DNA of 64,000 nt from Dissulfurirhabdus thermomarina (GTDB lineage: Bacteria > Desulfobacterota > Dissulfuribacteria > Dissulfuribacterales > Dissulfurirhabdaceae). Below are positions 55,214-64,000 of the stretch, one piece after another. Location of the stretch: positions 62,001 through 126,000 of the forward strand of contig NZ_JAATWC010000001.1 in assembly GCF_012979235.1 (NCBI RefSeq), written 5' to 3'. The notes under the pieces are model-generated. The model was not told where the DNA came from and made no database searches. It saw nothing but the letters and a program-made list of their open reading frames with translations. A program made the position numbers and the translations under genes. Positions within the stretch are counted from its first letter, which is position 1. Each line of letters opens with the position of its first letter.

Positions 55214-56661
55214 GGGGCCCCACCGGGGAGGAGACGGCGGCGGTGGTGGCCCGGCTGGTCCGGGCGGCCAACGTGGACCTGCCGGCGGACGTGGAACGGG
55301 CGCTCGCGGCGGCGCGCGCCCGGGAGACCGACGAGACCGGGCGCTTCGTGCTGGACGTCCTGCTCCGGAACGCCGCCCTCGCCCGCGAGACCGGCCTCCC
55401 CCTCTGCCAGGACACCGGGATCGACGTGGTCTTCCTCCGGGTGGGGACGGACCTCGCCCCGGGGTGGGATCCCCGGGCGGTGGTGGACGAGGGGGTCCGG
55501 CGGGCGACGCGGGAGGGGCACCTCCGGGCCTCGGTGTGCGATCCCCTCACCCGGGCCAACACCGGCGACAACACCCCCGCGGTGGTCCACGTGGAGGCGG
55601 TGGCCGGGGCGCGGCTCGAGGTCGCCGTCCTGCCCAAGGGGTGCGGCAGCGAGAACATGAGCGCCCTCTTCATGCTGCCGCCCTCGGCCGGGGTGGAGGG
55701 GGTGGTGGCGGCGGCGGTGCGCCGGGTGGTGGAGGCGGGGCCCAACCCCTGCCCGCCCGGGGTGATCGGCGTGGGGATCGGGGGCACCATGGAACGGGCG
55801 GCCTTCCTCGCCAAGAAGGCGCTCTTGCGGCCCCTCGGCGCGGCGCACCCCCGGGCCGACGTGGCGGCCCTCGAGGCGGCGATCCTCGAGGGGGTGAACG
55901 CCGCGGGGGCCGGCCCCCTGGGGCTGGGCGGGGCGGTGAGCGCCCTCGGGGTGGCGGCGGAGGTCTTTCCCTGTCACATCGCCAGCCTCCCCGTGGCGGT
56001 GAACGTCCAGTGCCACGCGGCGCGGCGGCGGAGCGCGTCGTGGGAGGCGGGGCGGTGGACCCTGTCGGAGGCGCCCGCGCCCTCCGCCGGGGCCCCAGCG
56101 CCGGTCTTTTCGGGGGCGAAGCGGGTCCGGCTGCCCCTGGATGCCGGGACGGCCCGGGGGCTCCGGGCCGGGGACCGGCTCCTCCTCACCGGACCGCTCT
56201 ACACCGGCCGGGACCAGACCCACCGCCGCCTCGTGGAGCTCCTGGACCGGGGCGAGCCGCTGCCAGTGGACCTCCGCGGCCAGCTCCTCTACTACGTGGG
56301 CCCCTCACCGGCCCCGCCGGGGGCGGTGGTGGGCTCGGCCGGGCCCACCACGAGCTACCGGATGGACGCCTACACGCCGCGGCTCCTGGAGGCGGCCGGC
56401 ATCCGCGCCACCATGGGGAAAGGGCGCCGGTCCCCGGAGGTCCGCGAGGCCCACCGGCGCCACGGGGCGGTCTATCTCGCCACCCTGGGGGGGGCGGGGG
56501 CCGAGCTGGCGCGGCGGATCCGGGCCTGCGAGGTGGCCGCCTTCCCGGAGCTCGGGCCGGAGGCCCTCTTCCGCATGGAGGTGGAGGACTTCCCCGCCGT
56601 GGTCATCGACGACACGGCGGGGGGCGACTACTACGACGCGGTGGCGGGGCGGCCGCGCTAG
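55210..56661 (+). CDS. Class I fumarate hydratase, alpha and beta parts in one chain
   Basis: Oxygen-sensitive [4Fe-4S] fumarase, 483 residues, GTG start. The alpha part carries the cluster Cys in GLPLCQDTGIDV, LPKGCGSENMS and NPCPPGVIGVGIGG. After a linker near residue 290, the beta part has LLLTGPLYTGRDQTHRRLVE, YVGPSPAPPG and AGPTTSYRMDAYTPRLLE. Many relatives keep two separate subunits. Why it is coupled to thiamine genes is unclear. Related tartrate dehydratases share the fold, but context and motifs favour fumarase. Confidence 0.9.
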   Translation: MRGPTGEETAAVVARLVRAANVDLPADVERALAAARARETDETGRFVLDVLLRNAALARETGLPLCQDTGIDVVFLRVGTDLAPGWDPRAVVDEGVRRATREGHLRASVCDPLTRANTGDNTPAVVHVEAVAGARLEVAVLPKGCGSENMSALFMLPPSAGVEGVVAAAVRRVVEAGPNPCPPGVIGVGIGGTMERAAFLAKKALLRPLGAAHPRADVAALEAAILEGVNAAGAGPLGLGGAVSALGVAAEVFPCHIASLPVAVNVQCHAARRRSASWEAGRWTLSEAPAPSAGAPAPVFSGAKRVRLPLDAGTARGLRAGDRLLLTGPLYTGRDQTHRRLVELLDRGEPLPVDLRGQLLYYVGPSPAPPGAVVGSAGPTTSYRMDAYTPRLLEAAGIRATMGKGRRSPEVREAHRRHGAVYLATLGGAGAELARRIRACEVAAFPELGPEALFRMEVEDFPAVVIDDTAGGDYYDAVAGRPR

Positions 56662-57095
56662 GCCGCGGGGAAGCGGAGCTTGGCCGATTCCTTGCCGTCT
56701 TTCCGCTTCACCTTCAGGGAGAGGTCGAGGCTCCCGCTGCGGAGCCCGAGGGAGAGGGGGGATTCCCCCCGGTCCTCGCGGATGTCCGTCACGGCGCGCA
56801 GGATGCGGATGGCCTCGGCGGCCACCGCGGCCGGAGGCGCGGGGAGCACGGTCTTGCCGGCCTCGTCCTTCATCTCCACCGTGACGAGTCCGCCGTCGTT
56901 CTTGATGGAGAGTTTCCGGGCCCGCTCCGTCACGGCGGCCAGGATCGCCAGGGCCAGGTACTTCAGGGCCGCCTCCGTGAGGTCCCCGGGCTCGGCGCCG
57001 GCCATGGCGCGCATCTGGCCGACGTAGTCGGTGTCCATGTAACAGTCGCACATCTCCTGGAGCTTGAGGTGGAGGTTGGGGGTCGGGATCTCCAT
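56658..57095 (-). CDS. Conserved hypothetical protein
   Basis: A 145-residue protein of unknown function starting MEIPTPNLHLKLQEMCDCYM behind AGGAGG. The N-terminus has CDCYMDTDYVGQMR, followed by helices with LKYLALAILAAVTERARKLS and a beta-rich C-terminus containing LDLSLKVKRKDGKESAKLRF. I recognise no catalytic motif. Its stop overlaps the fumarase stop on the other strand. Confidence 0.7.
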   Translation of the reverse strand: MEIPTPNLHLKLQEMCDCYMDTDYVGQMRAMAGAEPGDLTEAALKYLALAILAAVTERARKLSIKNDGGLVTVEMKDEAGKTVLPAPPAAVAAEAIRILRAVTDIREDRGESPLSLGLRSGSLDLSLKVKRKDGKESAKLRFPAA

Positions 57096-57277
57096 GCCGC
57101 CTCCTGAGGACGCTGTGGGTGTTCCGGCCCGGTGGACCGGGGGTTCGGTTTCGGCCGCGCCGCCCGGCGGCATCAGCCGGGCGGCCTTCCGTCCCGTTCC
57201 GGCGGCCGCCCGCGGGCGGCACCGGAGTTGGATTCATTATAAGGGGCGGAGCGGGGGAGGGGAAGCACCGGCCGGTT

Positions 57278-58642
57278 TCAGCCGGCGGAGCCCGGGCCCC
57301 CGGCCGCCTCCCGTTCCCCCGGGGCGCCGGAGACCCATTCCGGGGCCGGTGCCCCGGGATGCTCGCGCCACCGCGCCGGGAACCGGAGGATGACCCTGGT
57401 GCCCGTTCCGGGGGCGCTCTCGATGGCGATCTCCCCCTGGTGCTCCATCATGATCTGGCGCACCATGGGCAGGCCGAGGCCGGTCCCGCCCGGCTTGGTG
57501 GTGAAGGCCACGTCGAAGATGCGGGCCCGGTCTTCCTCCGGGATGCCCGGGCCCTCGTCGGCGATCTCCACCAGGGGGCGGCCCCGGTCGCGATGCACGC
57601 GGACGCGGATCACCTTGCCGGGGGGGGAGGCTTCCAGGGCGTTGCGCAGCAGGTGGAGGACGGCCACCATGAGCACCTTCCGGTTGGCCCGCACCGGGAG
57701 GGGCCGGTCGGGGAGGTCCGCCTCGACCCGGACCCCCTTTCGTTCCAGAGCGGGCCGGAGGGCCTCCATGGCGGCCGCCACCACATCCTGGAGGGGCAGG
57801 CGCCGGTAGTAGAGGGCCCGGCGCCTGCCCAGGGCCTCGAACTCCCGGACCACCTCTTCGAGGCGGCGGGCCTCCCTGAGGATGGCCTTCAGCTTCTCCC
57901 CCGCCGGTCCGGCCATCTCCCCGGAGCGGGCCAGGGCCTCGGCCAGGCCGCCGATGGCCACGGCCGGGTTCCGGATGCGGTCGGCGATCTCGAGCAGCAC
58001 CTCGGCCAGGCTCCGCTCGTGGGCGAGGGCCTCGAGGTCCCGGGCGAGCTGCATGAGTTCCGTGTTCACCCGGTCCAGTTCCCGGTTCTGCAGGGTCTTC
58101 TCCCGGAGGAGCCGCAGGACCTCCTCGTGCTTGGCCCGGAGGTTCTCCACGTACGATTCCCGGGTGTCGGCGAAGAGGTGGCGGCGGATGTCGGGCTCCG
58201 CGGCCTCGATGTCGGCCCAGGCCCTTTCCGGCGACCATTTCCGGCAGCGGACCAGGAAGGGCCGCCCGTGGTAGCCGCCCTTGATGGCGACCTCGTCGAG
58301 GACGCGCTTGAGGCCGGGGAAGGGCGGGTACTTGAGGAGTTCGTCGAAGTCGGCCGGGCAGGCGCCCTCCAGGGCCGGGCAGGTCCGCCGCCCCAGGGCG
58401 GTGAACTCGAGCCCGGCCCCCCGGCCGCCGGGCCCCTCCACGAAGGCCAGGGTGAAGGTGCCGCCGTCGACGTGCCGGAAGAGGAAGCGTGCCAGCTCCG
58501 AGGCGGCGGCCGCGGCCTGGACCGCGAAGCGGCGGCCGAAGCCGGCGGCCGCGGCGATCCACTTGGCCCGGCCGCGAATGGCCGGGATGTCGGTTTCCTG
58601 GCCGACCACCAGGGTGAGGAGGTGGAGCCGGTTGTCCTTCAT
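57278..58642 (-). CDS. Degenerate sensor histidine kinase with RsbT-like N-terminus
   Basis: A 454-residue soluble protein, start MKDNRLHLLTLVVGQETDIP coupled by ATGA overlap to the RsbT-like gene. Residues 1-85 follow the RsbT plan (DIPAIRGRAKWIAAAAGFGR, then ASELARFLF), but the N-box Asn is lost. A coiled coil spans about 165-215. The kinase core has an H-box reading ADRIRNPAVAIGG: the phospho-acceptor His of HEIRNP is Asp (residue 221). The ATP-binding boxes are intact: LHLLRNALEA, DEGPGIPEED, GGTGLGLPMV. It may bind ATP without autophosphorylating. Confidence 0.85.
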   Translation of the reverse strand: MKDNRLHLLTLVVGQETDIPAIRGRAKWIAAAAGFGRRFAVQAAAAASELARFLFRHVDGGTFTLAFVEGPGGRGAGLEFTALGRRTCPALEGACPADFDELLKYPPFPGLKRVLDEVAIKGGYHGRPFLVRCRKWSPERAWADIEAAEPDIRRHLFADTRESYVENLRAKHEEVLRLLREKTLQNRELDRVNTELMQLARDLEALAHERSLAEVLLEIADRIRNPAVAIGGLAEALARSGEMAGPAGEKLKAILREARRLEEVVREFEALGRRRALYYRRLPLQDVVAAAMEALRPALERKGVRVEADLPDRPLPVRANRKVLMVAVLHLLRNALEASPPGKVIRVRVHRDRGRPLVEIADEGPGIPEEDRARIFDVAFTTKPGGTGLGLPMVRQIMMEHQGEIAIESAPGTGTRVILRFPARWREHPGAPAPEWVSGAPGEREAAGGPGSAG

Positions 58643-59601
58643 GTCTCCCACCGGACCACCAGGAGCCCCGATGGATGGAGGGGCGGGGCCTCGGCCCTGG
58701 GGAAGAAGGCCTGGGCGACGATCAGGGGCGGGGCGGCCCGGGCCGCGGGGACGATGTCCGAAGGCTCCAGGGGCAGGCCGGTGACGGCCAGGGCCGTTCC
58801 GGCCCCGGGGGCCGGGGCCACGGGGCCCCGCCCCGGGGGTACCCGGCGGCAGCCGGCGCCATCGACAACGAAGAGCCGGCCCTCCGGGGGCATCCGGAGC
58901 CGGAAGGCGACGCCGCCGAGTTCCAAGATCCAGCCGGGCGGGGGCGCGGTGGAGGCCCGTTCCGGCCGGAGCCCGACCTGGACGGTCACCGAGCCCGGGC
59001 GGACCTCCTCGGCATAGAAGAGCGCTCCCCCGCGGGCCGGGCCTGGGCGCAGGAGGACGGCGGTCTCGATGCCGGCCCCGGAGGCCGCATCCCGGGGGCG
59101 GGCCGGGGCCGCCGAAAGTTCCGCCGCCACCAGGGTCCCGGAGAAGGGCCGGCCGCCGGGGCAGGGACAGGGAGCGGGCCCCGTGCTCCCGGAGCAGAGG
59201 GCGGCCCGGTCGGCCAGGCGGAAGACCGTGCCCAGCCCGGCGCCGAGGCCCTGGTCCGAGGATGTGCCGTCCCGGAGCACGGCGGCGAGGTCCGGGATGC
59301 CCGGGCCCCGGTCCAGGGCGGCCACGGTGATGAGCGGGGGCCCCGGGCCGCCCAGCCCGAAGACCCGGACCAGGCCGTCCTCGGCGTGGTGGACGACGAG
59401 GTTGGTGGCCAGCTCGCTGGCCACCAGCACCGCCTCGGCGCGGCGCCTTTCCGGAAAGCCCAGGCGTGCCGCCATCTCGTCGGTCACCCGGCGGGCCACC
59501 GCCACGTCGGCCTCCCGCCGGACGGGGACCTCCTCGAGGACGGGCCGGTTCGGGGCCGGGGACAGGCCCAAGGGGTCGAGGCGCCGCCGGGTCACGGGCA
59601 C
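58639..59601 (-). CDS. rsbT: RsbT-type serine kinase with C-terminal extension
   Basis: GHKL switch kinase of a stressosome, 320 residues, GTG start (59601; GTG at 59595 also possible). The first 140 residues are RsbT-like: AVLVASELATNLVVHHAEDG (N-box), LDRGPGIPDLAAVL (G1) and GLGAGLGTVFRLADRAALC (G2). The remaining 180 residues are not recognised. They contain RLFVVDGAG and could be a decayed RsbX/SpoIIE-type phosphatase, which often follows RsbT. It lies 4 bp after the RsbS-like gene. Confidence 0.8.
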   Translation of the reverse strand: MPVTRRRLDPLGLSPAPNRPVLEEVPVRREADVAVARRVTDEMAARLGFPERRRAEAVLVASELATNLVVHHAEDGLVRVFGLGGPGPPLITVAALDRGPGIPDLAAVLRDGTSSDQGLGAGLGTVFRLADRAALCSGSTGPAPCPCPGGRPFSGTLVAAELSAAPARPRDAASGAGIETAVLLRPGPARGGALFYAEEVRPGSVTVQVGLRPERASTAPPPGWILELGGVAFRLRMPPEGRLFVVDGAGCRRVPPGRGPVAPAPGAGTALAVTGLPLEPSDIVPAARAAPPLIVAQAFFPRAEAPPLHPSGLLVVRWET

Positions 59602-59605
59602 CGCC

Positions 59606-59986
59606 TCAGGCCGTCACCCGGACGCCGAACCGCGCCACGGCGTCCTGGACGTCCAGGGCGAACTCGAGCCCGGTCATCCGGATCCCGAAGTCCAGGACCG
59701 TGAGCACGGTGGGGACGCCGAGCCCGGCCACCACGGCCCGGGCGTCCAGGTTGCGGGCGAGGGCCGCCAGGGACTCGAGGTGGCCGGCCAGGTAGGAATC
59801 CACCACCTCCACCTGGTGGAGGTCGAAGACCACGCCCCGCGCCCCGGTCCGGCGGACCTCGTTCGCCAAGAGCTCCATGAGCCGGGCCACGCTGGCATCA
59901 TCGATGTCCTCGTCCAGGGTGACGAGGAGCACCGCGCCGAGGGAGATCACGGAATAGGGCTCCGGCGGGGCCGGGAAGGCGGTCAT
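59606..59986 (-). CDS. rsbS: RsbS-type STAS domain protein
   Basis: Core scaffold STAS protein of a stressosome, 126 residues, start MTAFPAPPEPYSVISLGAVL. The STAS fold is complete: LLVTLDEDIDDASVARLMEL, GVVFDLHQVEVVDSYLAGHL and AVVAGLGVPTVLTVLDFG. Ser in VDSYLA aligns with the Ser phosphorylated by RsbT in Bacillus RsbS. It overlaps the RsbR gene by 4 bp and precedes rsbT by 4 bp. Confidence 0.85.
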   Translation of the reverse strand: MTAFPAPPEPYSVISLGAVLLVTLDEDIDDASVARLMELLANEVRRTGARGVVFDLHQVEVVDSYLAGHLESLAALARNLDARAVVAGLGVPTVLTVLDFGIRMTGLEFALDVQDAVARFGVRVTA

Positions 59987-60867
59987 GGCTCGGGTGCAGG
60001 CGGTGCGCCCGGCCCCGGGGGCGCCTCCTCCCCGGCCTGGCGCCGCAGGCGGCGGATGGCCATGTGCAGGGCGTCGGCCATGCGCCCGCGCACCGTGATG
60101 TTGGCCATGTCGACCCCCAGGCGGGCCATGGTCCGGGCGATGTGGGGCGAGACCCCCGTGAGCACGGCCCGGCTCCCCATGAGGCGGGCGGCGTCCACGG
60201 TCTGGAGGAGGTGGTTGGCCACCTCCGCGTCCACGGCGGGCACCCCCGTGATGTCGAGGATGACGAAGGGCGCCCGGGTCCGCTCGATGCCCTCGAGGAG
60301 TCGCTCCATGGCGATCTTGGCCCGGCGGCTGTCGAGGGTCCCCACCAGGGGGAGGGCCAGGACCCCGTCCCAGACCTCGAGGACCGGGGTGGAGAGCTCG
60401 AGGATCTCGTCCTGGAGGTGGCGGATGTCCGCTTCCTGTTTCCGGAGGAGTTCCTCCTGCTGCTCGAGGAGGGACCGCTCCTGTTCGAGCCGGTCGGAGA
60501 TGTCGATGTAGTGCTCGACGCAGCCGACGACCTTTCCCTCGAAGTTCCGGAGCGGCCGGCTGGCGTATTCGATGGGGACCTCGCGGCCGTCGGGCAGGTG
60601 GAGGGTGGTCTGGCCCTGGTTCACGGCCTGGGTCTCCACCGCCACGCGGCAAGTGCAGTTCTCGGTCTGGCACATGGGGGTGTTGAAGATGTCGTAGCAC
60701 TTGCGGTCGAAGCAGTCCCCGGGCGAGCGGCCGACGAGCTCGGCGCCGGCCTTGTTGATCATCACGATGTTGTGCTCGAGGTCGGTGACGAAGATCCCGG
60801 AGGGGACGGCGTTGAGGATCTCGGAGAGGAAGCCCTCGTCGATGGGGAGGTCTTCGAGGCTCTTCAT
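59983..60867 (-). CDS. rsbR: RsbR-type PAS-STAS stressosome sensor
   Basis: A 294-residue stressosome sensor, start MKSLEDLPIDEGFLSEILNA behind GGAGG. Residues about 15-130 form a PAS domain (SGIFVTDLEHNIVMINKAGA) with a Cys cluster CYDIFNTPMCQTENCTC, typical of PAS domains of anaerobes. A coiled linker (LEQERSLLEQQEELLRKQEA) leads to the STAS domain (PFVILDITGVPAVDAEVANH, RAVLTGVSPHIARTMARLGV). The first phospho-Thr of Bacillus RsbR (VDT) reads Ala here (VDA), while the second, in LTG, is kept. Heads the operon RsbR-RsbS-RsbT-kinase. Confidence 0.87.
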   Translation of the reverse strand: MKSLEDLPIDEGFLSEILNAVPSGIFVTDLEHNIVMINKAGAELVGRSPGDCFDRKCYDIFNTPMCQTENCTCRVAVETQAVNQGQTTLHLPDGREVPIEYASRPLRNFEGKVVGCVEHYIDISDRLEQERSLLEQQEELLRKQEADIRHLQDEILELSTPVLEVWDGVLALPLVGTLDSRRAKIAMERLLEGIERTRAPFVILDITGVPAVDAEVANHLLQTVDAARLMGSRAVLTGVSPHIARTMARLGVDMANITVRGRMADALHMAIRRLRRQAGEEAPPGPGAPPAPEP

Positions 60868-60985: not shown

Positions 60986-62620
60986 TCACCCGGCGGGGGC
61001 GGCGTCAATCGGGCCGGGGGCGCCTGGCCCCTTGGGCGGGCAGGGGCGCGCGGGCATCCGGACCACGAAGGTGGTGCCCCGGCCGGGCTCGGACCGCGCC
61101 TCTACCTCGCCGCCGGCGTCGAGGACGAGGCGCTGGACCACGGAGAGACCGAGTCCGCTCCGCTCGGGGACGGTGGTGAAGAAGGGGTCGAAGATGTGGG
61201 GGAGGTCCTCCCGGCGGATCCCGGCGCCGTTGTCCGAGACGGTGAGGACGTGGCGGTCCGCTTCGTGCGCCACGGAGATGGAGATCCGGCCCCCCTCGGG
61301 GGGCAGCGCCTGGTAGGCGTTCAGGATGACGTTGAAGAGGATCTGGCGCAGTTCCCCCGGGTCCATGTGGAGGCAGGAGCCGTCCGGCACCGAGACGGTG
61401 AGCTCGGCCCGGGGCAGTTCCGGGCGGCGGGCCAGGAGTGCCAGGGTCCGTTCCACCTCTTCCCGGAGGGAGACCGGCTGCCCTTCCTTCCGTTCCGGCC
61501 TCGCGAAGAGGAGGAAGCTCTCCACCAGGCGGTCGAGGCGCTCGCACTCGCGGCCGACGATGTCGAGGAGGCGCCGGGCCTCGTCCGGGATGCCGCCCGA
61601 CTCGGACAGGAACTGGACCGAGCCCGACAGGGAGGCCAGGGGGTTTCGGATCTCGTGGGCCAGCCCCGCGGCCATCTCGCCCAGGGCGGCGAGGCGGTTC
61701 ATGTACTCGAGGTGTCGCTGGCGGTTCTTGAGCTCGGTGATGTCTTGGAAGATGAGCCCGTGGCCGAGGGGGCGGTCGGCCTCGTCGGAGAGGGGAAAGG
61801 CGGCCACCCCGAGGCAACGCTCGCCGGCGGGGGTGGCCTGTCGGATCTCGTACCGGTGCTGCCCCCCGGCGGCGACCTCGGGCGCGACCTCGGCGAGGAG
61901 GCGCGCCCCCTCGGGCCAGGCGGTCTCCAGCGGGTGCCCGTAGGCCTCGTAGAGCCCCGGCCCCAGGATGTCCACGGCGGCCTGGTTGAAGGAGGTCAGC
62001 CGCCCTGCGTCGTCCACCGTGACCACGCCGGAACGGAGGTTACGGGCCAGGTGCCGCTGGATCTGTTCCATGCGGCGCAGGTCCACCCTCGCCTCGGACA
62101 GCTCCTGCTGGGCGGAGCGCAGCCGCTGGGCGAGGGCGATCCCCAGGGCGGCGGTGAGGTTGAAGGCCGCCATGTTGAGAAAGAAGGTGAAGGCCCGCTC
62201 CGGGAGCCCGGGGCCGGGCCGGGGGGGCCAGTAGAGGAGGGCGAAGGTGATCGTCGAGAGCACCGCCGACGTGGTGCCCCCGGCCCGGCCGCCCAGGAGG
62301 CAGGCGGTGATGATGGCCACCGGGTAGAGGAAGGTGAGAGGGCTTTCCGCCCGCCCCGTCCAGAGGACCAGGAGGGTGACGAGGACCACGTCGGAGACCA
62401 CCTGGGTCCAGACCAGGGCCCGGATGTACCGGCGCCAGGCGGCCCAGGCGAAGAAGAGGGCGGAGGCCGCCAGGGCCGCGACCCCGAGCCCGTAGAGCCC
62501 GGCGACGAAGGTGCCGGTCCCGGGGGCCGCCGAGGGCCAGGAGAGGACGAAGGCGGCCAGGAGCCCCAGGAGGGCGAGGCGGCCGGCGGTGATCCAGGGC
62601 AAGAGGCGCGGGTCGGGCAT
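60986..62620 (-). CDS. pilS: PilS-type membrane sensor histidine kinase
   Basis: A 544-residue kinase, start MPDPRLLPWITAGRLALLGL. The N-terminal third holds six or so membrane helices (to about residue 165). A PAS domain follows (RSGVVTVDDAGRLTSFNQAA). The kinase core has an intact H-box AGLAHEIRNPLASLSGS, N-box LFNVILNAYQALP, G1 VSDNGAGIRREDL and G2 GLGLSVVQRLV. It lies 3 bp after the PilR-type regulator, so the two form a pair. The pilus operon with a sigma-54 promoter at 40.8 kb is a likely target. Confidence 0.9.
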   Translation of the reverse strand: MPDPRLLPWITAGRLALLGLLAAFVLSWPSAAPGTGTFVAGLYGLGVAALAASALFFAWAAWRRYIRALVWTQVVSDVVLVTLLVLWTGRAESPLTFLYPVAIITACLLGGRAGGTTSAVLSTITFALLYWPPRPGPGLPERAFTFFLNMAAFNLTAALGIALAQRLRSAQQELSEARVDLRRMEQIQRHLARNLRSGVVTVDDAGRLTSFNQAAVDILGPGLYEAYGHPLETAWPEGARLLAEVAPEVAAGGQHRYEIRQATPAGERCLGVAAFPLSDEADRPLGHGLIFQDITELKNRQRHLEYMNRLAALGEMAAGLAHEIRNPLASLSGSVQFLSESGGIPDEARRLLDIVGRECERLDRLVESFLLFARPERKEGQPVSLREEVERTLALLARRPELPRAELTVSVPDGSCLHMDPGELRQILFNVILNAYQALPPEGGRISISVAHEADRHVLTVSDNGAGIRREDLPHIFDPFFTTVPERSGLGLSVVQRLVLDAGGEVEARSEPGRGTTFVVRMPARPCPPKGPGAPGPIDAAPAG

Positions 62621-62623
62621 CGT

Positions 62624-64000
<1,377 letters not shown>

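Follow-up and report, generated by a model that had tools for sequence, protein, structure and literature searches.

How does a protein pass on a signal when it has the ATP-binding boxes of a histidine kinase and lacks the phosphoacceptor His? The question is raised by PHK (pseudo-histidine kinase), a 454-aa protein encoded at 57278..58642 on the minus strand of the window, by which we mean the whole 64,000-nucleotide stretch of Dissulfurirhabdus thermomarina DNA analyzed here. PHK consists of an RsbT-like head, a coiled linker, a HisKA-like DHp in which Asp takes the place of the His, and a HATPase_c domain. HisKA proteins read xAHExRNP at the H-box. In PHK, the corresponding DNA (ATC GCC GAC CGC ATC CGG AAC CCG) encodes IADRIRNP, with codon 221 (57980..57982, minus strand) reading GAC, just as the original prediction had it (DRIRNP, Asp at residue 221). 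Residue 222 is Arg instead of Glu, while N225 (+4) and P226 are retained. Pfam matches HATPase_c with an E value of 2.4e-25 and HisKA only weakly (23 bits against a cutoff of 26.9). The ATP-binding boxes, which had been described as intact, are all present (N334, D362-x-G364-x-G366, F376, G388, and G390). The replacement of the H-box His by Asp is thus confirmed.

Relatives of PHK were gathered from genome contigs and whole genomes of the same order. The residue at the His site is Asp in 29 of 30 aligned transmitters and, once L110 is added, in 30 of the 31 relatives read; the carriers are all 27 sequences of the RsbT-headed clade in the large alignment, two PAS-headed proteins, and L110 from genome G335, which belongs to a different family of the phylum and has the same IADRIRNP H-box. 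The 29 Asp-bearing aligned transmitters also have K, R, Q, or L in place of the acid at H+1, and Asn(+4) and Pro(+5) are fixed in all 30. The sole exception to the Asp is L013, from a Desulfobulbaceae metagenome-assembled genome, which combines HEIRNP with a degenerate RsbT-like head; no stressosome genes were found beside this gene (L013 5983-7254). In the transmitter tree, the 30 Asp members form one clade with support of 97/96, which amounts to one change, and both L013 and H-bearing membrane kinases fall outside it. The simplest reading of this topology is a single loss of the His, with the Asp retained ever after. Within the clade, residues 219-233 are the best-conserved stretch measured (mean majority fraction, 0.89), followed by the whole DHp alpha1 helix and the linker; the CA domain, alpha2, and the head are less conserved than this core, the head and CA being the more variable regions. 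A lone mutation or a read error, which had been named as an objection to the original prediction, is ruled out by the alignment of homologs, as 30 sequences, spread over many genera and families, share the same Asp.

The head (residues 1-140; 58223..58642, minus strand) has no family match in Pfam, and its sequence has no credible match among solved structures. Comparison with RsbT of related operons by hhalign, on the other hand, gave 95.9% probability and an E value of 5e-9 over 124 columns (residues 11-136). An AlphaFold model of the head (pLDDT, 89; pTM, 0.83), searched against the PDB with Foldseek, returned the anti-sigma switch kinases SpoIIAB, UsfX, and RsbW, or complexes of them, at ranks 1 to 18. 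The RsbT likeness had been placed in the first 85 residues; the likeness holds, and the length does not, because the C-terminal part ("DEVAIKG...RCRKW") also aligns with RsbT and extends the domain to about 140 residues. The head shares with RsbT, SpoIIAB, and RsbW its predicted fold, the N-box Glu, the docking Arg, and a place in an rsbRS operon. It differs from them in being fused to a transmitter and in having lost the G1 and G2 nucleotide boxes and the N-box Asn, whose position is F53 (TTC), in agreement with the loss noted earlier. The picture of two GHKL units, one without nucleotide boxes and one on a transmitter incapable of conventional autophosphorylation, stands, with the Asp kept by the homologs. 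R23 and E49 are invariant across the clade. By way of RsbT, R23 aligns with R20 of SpoIIAB, which we take to be a docking contact for SpoIIAA. E49 sits, by alignment, at the position of Glu45 of Listeria RsbT, the potential catalytic base of that kinase (PMC9237128). The head may thus be an RsbT that is unable to bind nucleotide and may still dock on a STAS protein; we consider such docking rather probable.

The linker (residues 155-214; 58001..58180, minus strand) is a long helix containing the motif ENLRAKHEEV, of which N167, L168, K171, H172, and E174 are invariant in every RsbT-headed member. It leads into the DHp (residues 215-276, core 219-233; 57815..58000) and the CA/HATPase_c domain (residues 280-425; 57368..57805), both on the minus strand. 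In CrdS, the substitutions H371A and E372A abolished kinase activity and left phosphatase activity in place, and N375A did the reverse. The same division was seen across CrdS and three further HisKA kinases: kinase activity, but not phosphatase activity, depended on the acid at +1, and phosphatase activity, but not kinase activity, on the Asn/Thr at +4 (PMC3510030). Loss of the H and E with R, N, and P fixed is the signature that a kinase-negative, phosphatase-competent DHp would leave, although it falls short of proof. A retained Asn does not by itself establish phosphatase function: of the His-less kinases, DivL has been studied best and is neither a kinase nor a phosphatase (PMC4211667), and phosphatase activity is lost in PleC H610A (as cited in PMC3510030). 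Nor can an ATP-dependent phosphatase apply to all members, because L015 and L110, which form one sublineage, have lost the N, G1, and G2 boxes of the CA domain and kept the Asp box; loss of the N, G1, F, and G2 boxes as a set is confined to these two. Members of that branch may be able to do without ATP.

The genes around PHK place it in a stressosome operon. The order on the minus strand is lepA, lepB, pyrB, pyrC (names that we take from our own reading of the sequences), an NtrC/PilR-type regulator, a PilS-type kinase, rsbR, rsbS, an RsbT/RsbX-like gene, and PHK. The regulator (REC, sigma-54 activator, and Fis HTH domains; 62627..64000, minus strand) runs past the window, and the PilS/AtoS-like sensor kinase (60986..62620, minus strand) has a normal H-box, LAHEIRNP. 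RsbR (59983..60867, minus strand) joins a Cys-rich PAS to a STAS domain and has Ala at the equivalent of the first phosphosite (VPAVDAEVA), and the STAS protein RsbS (59606..59986, minus strand) has VDSYLA as its phosphosite-equivalent motif. Next comes Tx (58639..59601, minus strand), a 320-aa RsbT-like and RsbX-like fusion whose stop overlaps the start of PHK (ATGA). In this species, the RsbT part of Tx has intact ATP boxes, and the RsbX/SpoIIE part is without the GD, DxxGHG, and SDG motifs. No separate RsbT was found in this species' genome, whereas many relatives have a separate rsbT gene and the RsbX motifs. Of the rsbRSTX module, the window species therefore has the RsbR and RsbS STAS proteins, with one fused RsbT-like domain in place of a separate RsbT kinase and RsbX phosphatase.

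The gene order rsbR-rsbS-(rsbT)-rsbTX-PHK is conserved across the order, with PHK last. PHK is present in 25 of 46 genomes and orthologous rsbR in 23 of these 25; in the two PHK genomes without an rsbR match, the contigs end inside the operon. None of the 21 genomes lacking PHK has rsbR (Fisher P = 7e-11 for co-occurrence, a value that ignores the kinship of the genomes). The PilS-type kinase adjoins rsbR in seven genomes (G000, G004, G006, G007, G010, G016, and G031) from six families of the order.

The phosphosites of the STAS proteins showed a pattern of their own. At the first RsbR phosphosite (T171 equivalent, VDT), each of the 15 loci that have a separate rsbT carries Thr, and the loci read without rsbT always have Ala, Ser, or Glu (Ala here; Glu in G006/L119). 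The RsbS phosphosite is Thr with rsbT, except in L071, and Ser without it. The kinase gene and its target residues thus seem to co-vary. The RsbR PAS carries the Cys-rich motif CFDRKCYDIFNTPMCQTENCTC, for which redox or metal sensing is possible; similar motifs occur in the PAS fusions described below. Other genes at the operon borders vary. Directly downstream of PHK, the window encodes a 171-aa protein (56658-57173, minus strand) that matches nothing in Pfam, NCBIfam, or the loci of relatives. The corresponding position in L007 (7281-10354), L004, L005, L008, L011, L012, L014, L071, and L085 is taken by a large protein and a DUF1318 protein, a pair that recurs in those genomes and is absent from the window; the large protein, checked in L007, has no Pfam match. 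In G005, the region upstream of rsbR (L069 10323-11657) encodes a receiver protein and a small HisKA-like protein with the motif HNLNGP, which are a possible partner pair.

A natural experiment in two genomes bears on which way PHK faces. G012 and G014 have no full RsbR and no RsbR STAS, their sole match to RsbR being its PAS domain. This PAS (42-55% identity to the RsbR PAS) is fused directly, via a coil, to an Asp-box transmitter (L065 5060-6259 and L066 2310-3491) that sits within the Asp clade, and neither protein has kept the RsbT head or the linker motif ENLRAKHEEV. Wiring of the sensor of RsbR straight to the transmitter is an argument for placing PHK downstream of RsbR as its output, with the head and linker facing the stressosome.

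Taken together, we regard the family, its wiring to the stressosome, and its loss of classical kinase activity as jointly very well founded. What PHK does is harder to say. With the essential His changed to Asp and a worn RsbT-like head in a stressosome operon, the signal is probably passed by binding or dephosphorylating a regulator rather than by phosphorylating one. Tentatively, we favor a stressosome-docked pseudo-histidine kinase with a response-regulator phosphatase or phospho-binding output; that the output is a true phosphatase is possible, although we would not go so far as to call it likely. PHK would be the output component of a Gram-negative stressosome. Its head, having lost nucleotide binding and kept a STAS-docking surface, would anchor the protein on the RsbR/RsbS core, whose state would be relayed by the coiled linker to a transmitter locked in a kinase-dead form (His to Asp; Glu to Lys, Arg, or Gln). 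The transmitter would retain the response-regulator-binding surface and the Asn used for dephosphorylation, and PHK would then dephosphorylate a regulator charged by another kinase, or bind it in its phosphorylated form, under the control of the stressosome. The family, its conservation and single origin, the operon, the co-occurrence, the predicted head fold, and the PAS-head swap can be read from sequence; from these we infer STAS docking, phosphatase activity, the direction of control, and which regulator is served.

DivL and RocA are precedents for a different mode of action, in which PHK would have no activity of its own, dock on a normal sensor kinase, and shift its kinase/phosphatase balance. 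DivL (4q20) is also among the top structural matches, and the loss of ATP boxes in L015/L110 would suit such a role. Candidate partners are the PilS-type neighbor found beside rsbR in the seven genomes listed above and the H-bearing paralogs, which are about 35% identical over DHp-CA and occur in many of the genomes. We nevertheless judge this mode unlikely, as most f9 genomes have no PilS neighbor, the best-conserved part of PHK is the Asn/Pro dephosphorylation core, and no single kinase co-varying with PHK was seen in what was searched. Of the H-bearing kinases inspected in this genome, the nearest is a PAS-GAF kinase of the ordinary kind. Synteny did not point clearly to PilRS as the regulator pair of PHK: PilS itself is nearly universal in the genomes, its adjacency to rsbR is limited to six families, and its residues at H+8, H+12, and H+15 differ from those of PHK. 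The H-bearing paralogs share V/I, G, and mostly L at H+8, H+11, and H+12, and a reading of the gene lists showed no receiver gene beside them.

Alternatively, released RsbT or RsbTX could bind the linker or head of PHK and be captured there or switch the shape of the transmitter, much as RsbT activates RsbU by ordering the coiled linker of RsbU (PMC12143880). The ENLRAKHEEV motif would fit this, as it is unchanged in every stressosome-linked member, whereas the PAS-headed members, which have no stressosome, have lost it. The head, however, is homologous to RsbT and not to RsbU_N, and a pure decoy would have no need of a conserved DHp core or a CA domain. The suggestion in the original prediction of a decoy that captures RsbT finds no support in that form: as an RsbT homolog that retains the STAS-docking Arg and the Glu base, the head has its natural partner in RsbS/RsbR, the binding site of RsbT, more than in RsbT itself. 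The ATP gating proposed with it is a conjecture, and the L015/L110 sublineage has the Asp box without the ATP boxes. Overall, a decoy or adaptor of this kind seems still less likely than an allosteric partner of a sensor kinase, and the earlier interpretation as a whole is partly supported; it did not mention the retained Asn(+4), the loss of the acid at +1, or the surrounding stressosome genes.

An unusual kinase, one that places phosphate on the Asp, on another of its residues (e.g., H172), or in trans on a partner kinase, we consider highly improbable, even though nearly all members have intact ATP boxes. Neither residue of the HisKA kinase pair has been kept, and the ATP boxes are missing from L015/L110. 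As for a nearby substitute His, H208 is not conserved, and H172, the one additional His that is conserved along the long helix of PHK, is invariant in RsbT-headed members and still a poor candidate: it lies 49 residues up the coil, L013 has it on top of an H-box His, and the Asp-bearing PAS-headed members do not have it. Finally, a decaying relic or sequence error, which the decayed RsbX half of the neighboring gene and the missing rsbT of this species might bring to mind, has next to no probability given the shared Asp already described, the open frames, and the strongly conserved core.

PHK shares features with several known systems. DivL of Caulobacter, rank 7 in the PDB fold search, likewise has a HisKA/HATPase transmitter without the phosphoacceptor, its His being replaced throughout the family as in PHK. 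DivL differs in having Tyr rather than Asp, multi-PAS sensors, a polar location, and weak ATP binding, and it works in the CckA/CtrA pathway without a stressosome link; PHK, with its Asp and RsbT-like head, is not a DivL ortholog. RocA, the pseudokinase of CovS in group A Streptococcus, is also sensor-kinase-like and works without autophosphorylation, but it is a membrane protein with a degenerate CA domain and no RsbT head. Closer in architecture are histidine kinases of other families of the phylum (L112 6556-8166, L114 183-2303, and L116 2446-4791), which follow rsbT-rsbTX in the same operon position and have an N-terminal RsbT-like domain and a coil. Unlike PHK, these have normal H-boxes (LSHEFRTP, MSHELRTP, and AHDFNN), and L112 has active-looking head ATP boxes and a DHp-CA that is not close to that of PHK. 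PHK, doubly dead, is thus a variant of a broader theme, the RsbT-headed kinase. Four-gene stressosomes that have been surveyed come with varied downstream modules, among them some HisKA kinases and RsbU_N heads, according to passages in PMC9237108 and PMC12143880. The passages of Heinz et al. (2022; PMC9237108) on other Proteobacteria treat a HisKA/HATPase protein as the presumed output of a four-gene stressosome, as here, with RsbU_N or other heads, and mention no His loss; they also state that no contact between RsbT and the output could be shown in Vibrio vulnificus. We found no description of a His-to-Asp version in the open-access papers searched.

Gram-negative stressosomes are without a SigB cascade, and how their signal reaches two-component systems is a standing question. 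In PHK, a stressosome output has been kept with its kinase reaction abolished and its dephosphorylation residue fixed, and two genomes have swapped the stressosome for a sensor fused straight to a PHK-type output. It is conceivable, if by no means assured, that PHK represents a stressosome output of a new class, an adaptor dead in both of its catalytic units, whose pseudo-switch-kinase head sits on the STAS core and whose His-to-Asp transmitter is a dedicated response-regulator phosphatase. If this is true, Ser/Thr partner switching would directly set the phosphorylation of a two-component regulator, and PHK offers a compact, testable case of a pseudo-histidine kinase bridging stressosome and two-component signaling.
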